Of a stretch of DNA of 38,926 nucleotides, positions 21,945 through 29,223 are shown piece by piece; the first letter of the stretch is position 1, and each line of letters starts with the position of its first letter. Position numbers and translations under genes: made by a program. Location: positions 20,177-59,102 of the forward strand of contig JAPLZX010000011.1 of assembly GCA_026394815.1 (NCBI GenBank), written 5' to 3'. A model generated the notes under the pieces. The model had not been told where the DNA came from. It ran no database searches and saw only the letters and a program-made list of their open reading frames with translations. This DNA is from Candidatus Zambryskiibacteriota bacterium. Its GTDB lineage: Bacteria > Patescibacteriota > Minisyncoccia > Phycocordibacterales > DATDWN01.

Positions 21945-22007
21945 ATTTTATTTTTGAGTATGTCAAATGGGGTGTGAATAGTATGTGGATAACTACATTG
22001 ACTTTAC

Positions 22008-22037
22008 TTGACAAATAATATGCTCTTGACGTATACT
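22008..22037 (+). promoter_or_regulatory. rpoB-operon promoter
   Basis: TTGACA - 18 nt - TATACT, about 275 nt upstream of the rpoB ATG. Confidence 0.75.
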
Positions 22038-22043
22038 CTATTT

Positions 22044-22195
22044 TGACTTCATACGATTGAGTCTCTGGTGAAAAGCGAAGAAGTGTAGGGAATTACAAGG
22101 TGAGAAGTCGTGTTACGACTTCGCAAGACCTTGAGCATCTGTACTCAGATGCGAAAGGTGTACAGAACCTGTAAGGTTAATAAGTTCTCAAACCA
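22044..22195 (+). ncRNA. Structured 5' leader or candidate ncRNA upstream of rpoB
   Basis: Stems CAAGGT/ACCTTG (22096-22133) enclosing GAAGTCG-tgtta-CGACTTC, then GCATCTG-tact-CAGATGC (22135-22152), then AACCT-gta-AGGTT (22166-22178). Confidence 0.6.
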
Positions 22196-22320
22196 TTTTG
22201 CATTTCAATCGTTAACAAATAAATAGCAAAGACAACAACCTCTTTGGGGAAGGGGGCTTGTTTTTGTTGGTTTTCGTTTTATTAATAAACAAAAGAGGGT
22301 TTTAAAAAATAATATTTTTT

Positions 22321-25300
22321 ATGAATATAACAACTGCTCGTCCACAGAAGTTTTTCAGTCGTTTTAGAAAACCACTTGCACCAACACCAAATTTCGTCGA
22401 GCCACAATTGAATTCTTTCAAGTGGCTTGTGGAAAAAGGACTGAAAGAAGTTTTTGAAGAATTTTCTTCCATAAAAGATTTTTCAGAAAAAAAGTTTACT
22501 TTGGATTTTACTGGTTTTGAATTAGCCCAAGCAAAACACGATGAGTATTATGCAAAAGATAACAAACTTTCCTATGAGGCGCCTTTGAAAGTCAAGGTAA
22601 AACTAAAGAATCATATTCTTGGTACGGAAAAAGAGCAGGAGATTTTTATGGCTGATTTTCCCCTAATGACTTCTCACGGCACATTTATCATTTCTGGTAT
22701 TGAAAGAGTTATTGTCCCTCAACTTGCCCGTTCATATGGTGTGTTTTTTACGGCCTCTGAAGTCAAAGGCCGCAAACTTTTTGGGGCTAAGATTATACCT
22801 TCTCGAGGGGCTTGGATAGAAGTAGAATCTGATGCAGAGGGGATGATCTATGTTCGTATTGATCGAAAAAGAAAATTTGCTAGTACTACTCTTCTTCGTG
22901 TTCTAGGAGCAAAAGATGATGCAGGAATCAGGAAGCTTTTTGCGGGGGATAAATTTGCAACTCAATCCATGGAAAGAACTTTATTGAAAGACAAAGATAA
23001 AACAGTAGACGAAGCATTTATTGAAATACATAAAAGATTGCGTGATGGAGATTTAGCTACAGCAGACAATGCACGTGAATTTATTAATTCTATTTTTGAA
23101 GAGGAAAGATATGACCTTTCTCCCGTTGGAAGATATAGATTCAACAAACGATTTAATAAAAAGATGGATGATAAGGAATTAAAGAGAAAAACCATATCTC
23201 TTGATGATCTTGTTATAATAATTTCTCATATAGCATTCCTTAATAACACTCCAAACGCGATGGAAGATGATATAGACCATCTAGGAAGTCGTCGTGTACG
23301 ATTTGTCGGAGAGCTTTTTCAACAAAAAATCCGTACCGGCATGGCCCAGATTAAAAGAAATATTCAGAACAGAATGTCTACTATTGATACGGATGTTACT
23401 CTTCCTATTCAGTTTATATCCCCAAAACCACTTCAAGCTCGTATTAAAGAATTTTTCACAACAAACCAATTATCACAATTTATGACGCAGGAAAACCCTC
23501 TTGCCGAAATAGAAAATCTTCGTACTCTTTCTGCCCTAGGACCTGGTGGTCTTAATCGTACCAGAGCAGGGTTTGAAGTTCGTGATGTGCACACTTCTCA
23601 CTACGGGAGACTTTGTCCAATACATACTCCAGAAGGACCAAATATTGGTTTGGTATTACGTCTTGCTATTTATGCCAGAATTAATAGTTTTGGAATGATA
23701 GAAACTCCCTATGCGAAGGTTAAAAACGGCAAAGTAACAAATGAGATTGTATATATGAACGCATCCGAGGAAGAAAGTTTTGCTATAGCTCATGCTGCCA
23801 CTCCAGTAGATAAAGATGGTAAAATCACTGTTTCAGATGTAGAAGTTCGTATAGAAGGGAATCCAAGTACCGTATCAAAAGACAAAGTAAATTTTATTGA
23901 TGTCGCTACAAACCAAGCCTTCTCAATTGCCACATCAATGATTCCTTTCCTGAACCATAACGAAGCAAACAGAGCTCTTATGGCATCTAATATGCAAAGA
24001 CAAGCTACTCCGTGTATTATTCCGGAAGTTCCGCTTGTTGCCACTGGTATGGAAGCTGATGCTCTTAAAGATACAGGGAGATTAGTTATCGCTACCGAGA
24101 ATGGTGTAGTTACACATTCTGATGGTATGAAAATTGTTGTAAAAAATGATCAAGAAAAATATAAAGAATATACTCTTATAAGATTTTCACGAACAAATGG
24201 TTTTACGGCATTTCATCAAAGACCAAGGGTTAATGTTGGTGATAAAGTAAGAAAAGGGGATACGATTGCCGATACATCTGCAAGTAAAGATGGGCAATCT
24301 GCAATAGGGCAAAATATGCTTGTAGCTTTTATGTCCTGGAGTGGTTCAAACTATGAAGACGCTATTATTCTTTCTGAAAGAGTTGTAAAAAACAGTAAAT
24401 TTACATCTATCCACATAGAGGATTTTGTAGTTAATGTTAGGGAGACAAAACTTGGTCCAGAAGTGACTACATGTGATATTCCAAATGTTGGTGAAGCAAA
24501 ATTAAAAAATCTAGCAGAGGATGGTATTGTTCAAGTCGGAGCAGAAGTTCGTCCTGGAGACATTCTTGTGGGTAAAATTACTCCCAAAGGAGAAACCCAA
24601 CTTACTCCAGAGGAAAGACTTCTAAGATCACTTTTTGGTGAAAAAGCTCATGATGTAAAAGATACTTCAAAACGAATGGAAGGAGGTAAAAGAGGGCGTG
24701 TTATTAAAGTACAAATTTTTTCAAGAGAAAATGGTGATAAATTAGATTCAGGTATTATAAAAAGAATTTATATTGAAGTAGCCCAGCTTCGAAATGTTTC
24801 AGTGGGAGATAAACTAGCTGGACGACATGGAAATAAAGGTGTTATTTCAAAAATTCTTCCGGAAGAAGATATGCCGTATATGGTAGATGGTACACCTATT
24901 GATGTTGTTCTCACTCCACTTGGCGTGCCAAGTCGTATGAACTTGGGTCAGATTTTGGAACTTCATTTGGGACTTGCTGCACATACACTAGATTATCAAG
25001 CTATTGTTCCTCCATTTGCAGGAGCTACAGGCGAAGAAATAAAAGAAGAATTAAAAAAAGCTGGATTTTCAGAAACAGGGAAAATGAAATTATTTGATGG
25101 GCGAACCGGTCAAGCTTTTGAACAGGATATTGCCGTAGGTTATATGTATATTATGAAGCTTCATCATATGGTGGAGGATAAAATTCATATGAGGTCTATT
25201 GGTCCTTACTCACTTATTACACAACAACCACTTGGTGGGAAGGCTCAAAATGGTGGTCAGCGATTTGGAGAAATGGAAGTTTGGGCACTTTTGGGTCACG

Positions 25301-25521
25301 GAGCAGCGCATACACTTCAGGAAATTCTGACCATTAAATCGGACGATATTGTTGGTAGATCAGCGGCTTTTGATGCAATAGTCAAAGGCTTGCCTATTAC
25401 CCAACTAAATACACCAGCATCATTTAATGTGTTGTTAAATAATTTACGTGGTTTAGCTTTAGATGTTCAGATTAAAAGGGGGTCGAAAGAAATATTAGAT
25501 GGTCATAAAGAAATCGTTTAA
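22321..25521 (+). CDS. rpoB: DNA-directed RNA polymerase subunit beta
   Basis: FISPKPLQARIKEFFTTNQLSQFMTQENPLAEI; RLCPIHTPEGPNIGL; GDKLAGRHGNKGVISKILPEEDMPYM; GGKAQNGGQRFGEMEVWALLGHGAAHTLQE. Confidence 0.98.
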   Translation: MNITTARPQKFFSRFRKPLAPTPNFVEPQLNSFKWLVEKGLKEVFEEFSSIKDFSEKKFTLDFTGFELAQAKHDEYYAKDNKLSYEAPLKVKVKLKNHILGTEKEQEIFMADFPLMTSHGTFIISGIERVIVPQLARSYGVFFTASEVKGRKLFGAKIIPSRGAWIEVESDAEGMIYVRIDRKRKFASTTLLRVLGAKDDAGIRKLFAGDKFATQSMERTLLKDKDKTVDEAFIEIHKRLRDGDLATADNAREFINSIFEEERYDLSPVGRYRFNKRFNKKMDDKELKRKTISLDDLVIIISHIAFLNNTPNAMEDDIDHLGSRRVRFVGELFQQKIRTGMAQIKRNIQNRMSTIDTDVTLPIQFISPKPLQARIKEFFTTNQLSQFMTQENPLAEIENLRTLSALGPGGLNRTRAGFEVRDVHTSHYGRLCPIHTPEGPNIGLVLRLAIYARINSFGMIETPYAKVKNGKVTNEIVYMNASEEESFAIAHAATPVDKDGKITVSDVEVRIEGNPSTVSKDKVNFIDVATNQAFSIATSMIPFLNHNEANRALMASNMQRQATPCIIPEVPLVATGMEADALKDTGRLVIATENGVVTHSDGMKIVVKNDQEKYKEYTLIRFSRTNGFTAFHQRPRVNVGDKVRKGDTIADTSASKDGQSAIGQNMLVAFMSWSGSNYEDAIILSERVVKNSKFTSIHIEDFVVNVRETKLGPEVTTCDIPNVGEAKLKNLAEDGIVQVGAEVRPGDILVGKITPKGETQLTPEERLLRSLFGEKAHDVKDTSKRMEGGKRGRVIKVQIFSRENGDKLDSGIIKRIYIEVAQLRNVSVGDKLAGRHGNKGVISKILPEEDMPYMVDGTPIDVVLTPLGVPSRMNLGQILELHLGLAAHTLDYQAIVPPFAGATGEEIKEELKKAGFSETGKMKLFDGRTGQAFEQDIAVGYMYIMKLHHMVEDKIHMRSIGPYSLITQQPLGGKAQNGGQRFGEMEVWALLGHGAAHTLQEILTIKSDDIVGRSAAFDAIVKGLPITQLNTPASFNVLLNNLRGLALDVQIKRGSKEILDGHKEIV

Positions 25522-25534
25522 TCAGATTAACTAA

Positions 25535-29223
<3,689 letters not shown>

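Follow-up and report, generated by a model that had tools for sequence, protein, structure and literature searches.

Organization of the rpoB locus

The 38,926-nucleotide stretch of DNA analyzed here, referred to as the window, contains rpoB at positions 22321 to 25521, recognized by its Pfam RNA_pol_Rpb2 domains, and, as the next gene, rpoC at 25735 to 29223, recognized by its RNA_pol_Rpb1 domains. These genes and the window features given below by coordinate are on the forward strand. The promoter TTGACA-N18-TATACT that the initial annotation had placed upstream of rpoB is present at 22008 to 22037; it matches 11 of 12 consensus positions, aligns with the -35 and -10 elements of the sister species, and is predicted to start the transcript at about 22044. 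The 281-nt stretch upstream of rpoB folds better than its dinucleotide shuffles (z = -3.25; 1 of 200 shuffles was as good). No tRNA or tmRNA was found in the window, and an Rfam scan of it returned nothing at the gathering threshold and chance-level hits below, in agreement with the earlier statement that the conspicuous hairpins in front of rpoB are not tmRNA, RNase P, SRP, 6S RNA, or a catalogued riboswitch. Two separate things lie upstream of rpoB, namely, a copy of a repeat, termed R1, and an older, conserved rpoB leader.

R1 is a recent insertion

When positions 22000 to 22330 were compared with 41 relatives by DNA search, the multicopy match was limited to approximately 22098 to 22178, and the covariance model of R1 matches 22098 to 22180 (G000:C6:42274-42356; 104.5 bits). 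The element itself, TGAG...CTGTAAGG, occupies 22101 to 22176, a site that is empty in the sister species. All 10 family members with an alignable rpoB leader lack R1 at this position, and their promoter and flanks are conserved. The empty site reads TTACAAGG directly followed by TTATTGG (L161), whereas the window reads TTACAAGG-[TGAG...CTGTAAGG]-TTAATAAG. A 76-bp insertion without loss fits equally well as a 78-bp insertion that replaced 2 bp of the target (TT), in which case the right end moves to 22178; with AAGG on both sides, the junction can be placed only to within 4 nt. Approximately 10 further R1 copies could be set against an empty site, either an orthologous locus or, for many of them, another copy of a larger dispersed repeat into which R1 had inserted. 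These comparisons revealed in several cases a left junction that follows a purine-G stretch (AAGG, AGGG, CGGG, or CGAG) and an apparent replacement of about two target bases. The R1 copy in the window is thus a recent insertion and not a regulator of rpoB; since its stems are dispersed and no relative that could be compared has them in this leader, they do not form a conserved rpoB control element. The original reading of these stems as a structured 5' leader or independent noncoding RNA has to be revised in this respect.

R1 forms three covarying hairpins

Hairpin P1 (22104 to 22122) is the proposed stem GAAGTCG-tgtta-CGACTTC, and all seven of its pairs show double-sided changes among 20 copies. 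Hairpin P2/P3 (22128 to 22159) combines the stem ACCTT/AAGGT, formed by 22128 to 22132 and 22155 to 22159, with the GCATCTG-tact-CAGATGC stem noted previously (22135 to 22152); the two are separated by a GA/GA internal loop (22133-22134 and 22153-22154), and both the 20- and the 88-copy alignments show covariation. The terminal hairpin P4, with the form NNCC-TGTAA-GGNN, spans 22166 to 22178 and corresponds to the reported AACC(T)-gta-(A)GGTT; the alignment with the sister species places it on the right insertion junction. The enclosing stem CAAGGT/ACCTTG did not hold up: its letters exist, but the 5' arm consists of flanking host sequence, CAAG together with the junction, and in the 88 other R1 copies ACCTT pairs instead with AAGGT, with 99.5% of the cells paired.

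In the 20-copy alignment, 18 of the 23 pairs of the three hairpins changed on both sides and 96% of the cells are paired. Double-sided changes were observed at 22 of 23 pairs in the alignment of 88 matches, which was fitted to the covariance model and hence leans towards it. Counts of this kind are inflated by relatedness among copies; the covariation score of 0.506 compares with 0.03 to 0.09 in a slid control that preserves relatedness, and none of 500 shuffles scored as high. The very strong covariation indicates that the hairpin set is a real structured element. P4 is paired in 98.3% of the cells of the 88 copies, with approximately 110 double-sided changes and a single G-U cell, and this scarcity of G-U may hint that the hairpin is maintained at the DNA level. 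The conserved core letters are GTGAG, GCAAGACCTT, AAGGTGTACNG, and CTGTAAGG, and unpaired core letters are kept across families. At the R1 loci, Rfam (release 15) gave no R1 match above the gathering threshold and recognized only neighbouring tRNA, rRNA, and a group I intron. Compensatory covariation, whose absence was to count against the original reading, is present in the stems, but as that of a repeat family and not of rpoB leaders, a warning that a group of hairpins cannot be taken for a leader regulator on the strength of covariation alone.

Distribution and genomic context of R1

In the genome from which the window comes, the covariance model detected six copies, of which two are weak; it also detected R1 in 42 of 61 relatives, whose genomes are metagenome assemblies, with 1 to 29 copies per genome. 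Among 188 genomes sampled evenly from the class, just 8 contained R1. The matches listed for a degenerate R1 pattern belonged to Parcubacteria lineages (Zambryski-, Nomura-, Kaiser-, Taylor-, Lloydbacteria, and similar) or to unclassified bacteria, and one of those listed was in a record titled Woesebacteria. The same pattern had no match among the viral contigs of IMG/VR, searches of phages and of plasmids likewise gave no match, and a phage or plasmid origin was rejected. The orientation of R1 relative to neighbouring genes is mixed; these neighbours stem from crude ORF calls, and many of the listed overlaps involve spurious ORFs. R1 is frequently nested within other, larger repeats.

R1 is enriched beside tRNA genes: 11 of 43 copies lie within 300 bp of one, versus an expectation of about 3.3%. 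In some of the tRNA-adjacent units, the last segment repeats the tRNA 3' end, and an antisense copy of this segment lies between the two. Independently of R1, downstream duplicates of the 3' end follow 9 of 60 tRNAs in two genomes, versus 0 in both controls.

The leader beneath R1

The GATTGAGT box, at 22055 to 22068 (GATTGAGTCTCTGG; consensus GATTG[A/T]GTTnYGG) and close to the start of the rpoB transcript, is kept by the sister species and by other families of the order. Of 86 regions upstream of rpoB in the order, 62 contain GATTG[A/T]GT, whereas shuffled sequences gave 2.6 and the reverse strand 4. The figure of 62 is a minimum, since a few of the 86 regions are cut by contig ends or misplaced. 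The usual distance of the box downstream from the start of the -10 hexamer is 21 to 25 nt (approximately 23), its consensus is GATTGAGTTnYGG, and in the genomes G007 and G010 the sole copy that is correctly spaced from a good -10 element is that of rpoB. Some, not most, other orders of the class contain it (5 of 29 loci, one of which is of the window's order).

Just upstream of rpoB, at 22234 to 22265, a terminator-like hairpin, AACAACCTCTT-TGGGG-AAGGGGGCTTGTT, is followed by a T-run. Such a hairpin with a T-run was found in 55% of the rpoB leaders, compared with 10% of shuffles, commonly 90 to 115 nt past the box, and its consensus stem in 11 family leaders has five pairs, of which four covary. 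The leader has the intrinsic terminator-like hairpin between promoter and rpoB that an attenuator would need. The apex TTGGGGAA (22240 to 22255) is common to several family leaders, and its conservation exceeds what a plain terminator requires. Separately, loci from other orders (L369 to L373) have short, box-less rpoB leaders with a terminator-like hairpin, e.g., CCCCTT...AAGGGG plus a T-run.

The box region may also pair over a distance, with CGATTGA (22054 to 22060) as the 5' arm and TCAATCG (22205 to 22211), the site of a TCAATCGCTAACA motif conserved in the family, as the 3' arm. Pairing of at least 6 bp that joins the box region to an AATC(G/TTGC) segment further downstream was found in 14 to 17 of 56 leaders, and in an anchored Watson-Crick test the own partner was longer than swapped ones, with 0 to 6 of 300 swaps as high depending on the settings, a modest signal. 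A looser test that admitted G-U pairs and any position was not significant (7.12 versus 6.96 ± 0.16), RNAalifold on the family leader returned the terminator stem and no long-range stem, and Rfam gave nothing above the gathering threshold on the rpoB leaders.

Interpretation of the two elements

We consider it probable that both parts of the following reading hold jointly, i.e., that R1 is an inserted mobile repeat moved in trans and that the underlying leader attenuates rpoBC transcription. It builds on the observed insertion, dispersion, and covariation of R1 and on the observed conservation of the box and enrichment of terminators in the leaders. The conspicuous hairpins are one copy of a nonautonomous mobile repeat of about 76 to 78 bp of the Paceibacteria (Parcubacteria), recently inserted into the loop region of a preexisting rpoB leader, where it lies between box and terminator and leaves both intact. 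Most likely R1 is moved as DNA by an enzyme acting in trans, which would recognize the conserved core (GTGAG, GCAAGACCTT, AAGGTGTACNG, and CTGTAAGG) together with the hairpins. Its target would be purine-G rich, typically NRGG upstream of the insertion, with no clear target duplication and possibly about 2 bp exchanged. For the leader, which has the GATTGAGT box at its 5' end and the terminator hairpin further downstream, the most likely function is attenuation of rpoBC transcription, and the state of the box, free or bound, would decide the passage of the polymerase through the terminator. We regard the leader with moderate confidence as a candidate transcription attenuator of rpoBC. The initial guess that rpoB is controlled from this region may thus be correct in that a long leader possibly controlling rpoBC exists, though its conserved parts differ from the stems that had been named.

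Other explanations concern either the leader or the repeat. That the GATTGAGT box acts as DNA, as an operator or as an element of the initial transcribed sequence, is a tentative possibility: its distance to the -10 box is nearly fixed, but the downstream terminators and partner stems suggest a role as RNA. The hairpins of R1 could be read as a functional RNA, a small RNA or cis-regulatory module that spreads through its usefulness and was co-opted in this species by the rpoB leader as an additional domain. The covariation, the unpaired letters conserved throughout the order, and the position of R1 in a transcribed leader are in line with this idea, but the mixed orientation to genes, the same leader without R1 in the relatives, and the pattern of changes in P4, which suits upkeep as DNA more than the drift through G-U expected of RNA, make it distinctly improbable. 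Near absence of G-U from P4 would also follow if template-switch repair of palindromes kept the hairpins perfect without selection for DNA binding or RNA function. An R1 variant at L280, in which the P1 arm comes from the host gene and its complement lies in the insert, fits as well; the conservation of unpaired core letters across families is left unexplained, and we judge this reading very improbable. It is also improbable that two further proposals hold jointly: that the box is an RNA element acting on RNA polymerase or a partner in an order-wide autoregulation via terminator read-through, and that R1 and the tRNA-end variants are mini-elements integrating by hairpin-guided recombination, with arms built complementary to the target.

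No enzyme moving R1 was identified among the candidates considered. RAYT-like (Y1) genes, which would make R1 a REP-type repeat, are present in 39 of 61 relatives, and their number correlates weakly with R1 copy number (rank correlation of 0.32; p = 0.012). Five genomes with 7 to 14 R1 copies have no Y1 match, though, and the palindromes next to the RAYT genes of G007 and G010 are not R1, so that mobilization by RAYT transposases appears improbable. The host's Xer-type tyrosine recombinase is a rather unlikely mover of R1 and the tRNA-adjacent units. It occurs in nearly every genome, mostly exactly once, and duplicated tRNA 3' ends are a classical mark of tyrosine-recombinase integration. Against it stand the majority of R1 copies, which are away from tRNAs, the failure to recognize a dif-like site, and the copy-rich G007, in which no Xer-type match was found (a MAG that is 86% complete); since the recombinase is near universal, its co-occurrence with R1 cannot discriminate. 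Reverse transcriptases were rejected because they show no correlation with R1 copies. No gene-bearing, autonomous version of R1 was found in the two near-complete genomes G007 and G010. R1 behaves as a small nonautonomous mobile element resembling bcr1, BOX, or MITEs.

Comparison with known elements

The BCRs (bcr1 etc.) and the MITE-like repeats RUP, NEMIS/Correia, and ERIC are short, noncoding, dispersed, lineage restricted, and similar to mobile elements (PMC6542083, PMC3733652). R1 resembles the BCRs of Bacillus cereus and these MITE-like repeats in these respects. It differs in that it measures approximately 80 bp (100 to 400 bp for BCRs), shows no TTTAT motif and no terminal inverted repeats, belongs to a different clade, carries P4 on its junction, and has tRNA-linked variants. 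Empty sites add to its likeness to MITEs, from which the lack of an autonomous version in two genomes and of terminal inverted repeats sets it apart; where a MITE would show a target site duplication, AAGG is present at both junctions in the window and an apparent 2-bp exchange elsewhere. REPs are palindromes of 20 to 40 bp, tagged at one end by GTAG or CGTC (PMC3733652). R1 shares with the REP/RAYT system extragenic palindromes, single-strand hairpins, and a host with RAYT-like genes, but at approximately 80 bp it has three hairpins, ends in GTGAG and CTGTAAGG without a GTAG/CGTC tag, and is absent from the flanks of those RAYT genes that were examined, in G007 and G010. We regard R1 as a variant of the bcr1/MITE/REP type of repeat, since it misses defining REP and MITE features, its junction is unusual, and some of its variants are tRNA-linked (PMC6542083, PMC3733652).

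A search of open-access papers on repeats in Patescibacteria or on an rpoB leader found nothing relevant, and both the R1 family and the rpoB leader appear to be undescribed. The BOX elements of Streptococcus pneumoniae are modular repeats that fold into stable stems and lie close to genes; R1, likened to them by description only, is also structured, with stable stems, and near genes, and consists of a single module plus variants. The rplL-rpoB attenuator of Escherichia coli is a terminator ahead of rpoB that could set the supply of RNA polymerase. A terminator-like hairpin precedes rpoB here as well, but, unlike in E. coli, rpoB is preceded by its own promoter, a conserved 5' box lies at about +10, and rplJL is not the immediate upstream neighbour. 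If confirmed, the leader would be a new, lineage-specific rpoB attenuator, and a box and terminator in front of rpoB throughout the order would, if true, be a simple means of controlling RNA polymerase supply. The Paceibacteria are abundant, mostly uncultured, and have very small genomes; in genomes this small, a family of structured, mobile repeats that includes tRNA-linked forms and has no obvious transposase raises the question of who moves it.

Repeats found alongside R1

Several further observations were made in the relatives. RAYT-like Y1 transposases (among them L205 to L214) are common in the order and have their own flanking palindromes. G007 (L215 to L234 and L275 to L292) and G010 (L235 to L274) contain larger dispersed palindromic repeats of 120 to 170 bp, often with a nested R1; one family of them occupies about 22 places in G007 and 10 in G010. 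At L237:4022-4376, L233:4489-4700, L265, L266, L270, L274, and L234, a tRNA gene is followed by a unit that ends in a copy of the gene's own 3' end; some of these units are arranged in tandem, and an antisense copy frequently separates the two 3' ends. A group I intron (Rfam RF00028) adjoins an R1 copy at L188 (G047), positions 1219 to 1441. The R1 variant at L280:5206-5396, which is 96 bp long, forms an exact tandem duplicate at a gene end, and the 5' arm of its P1 is the host gene's own sequence, with the complement within the insert.
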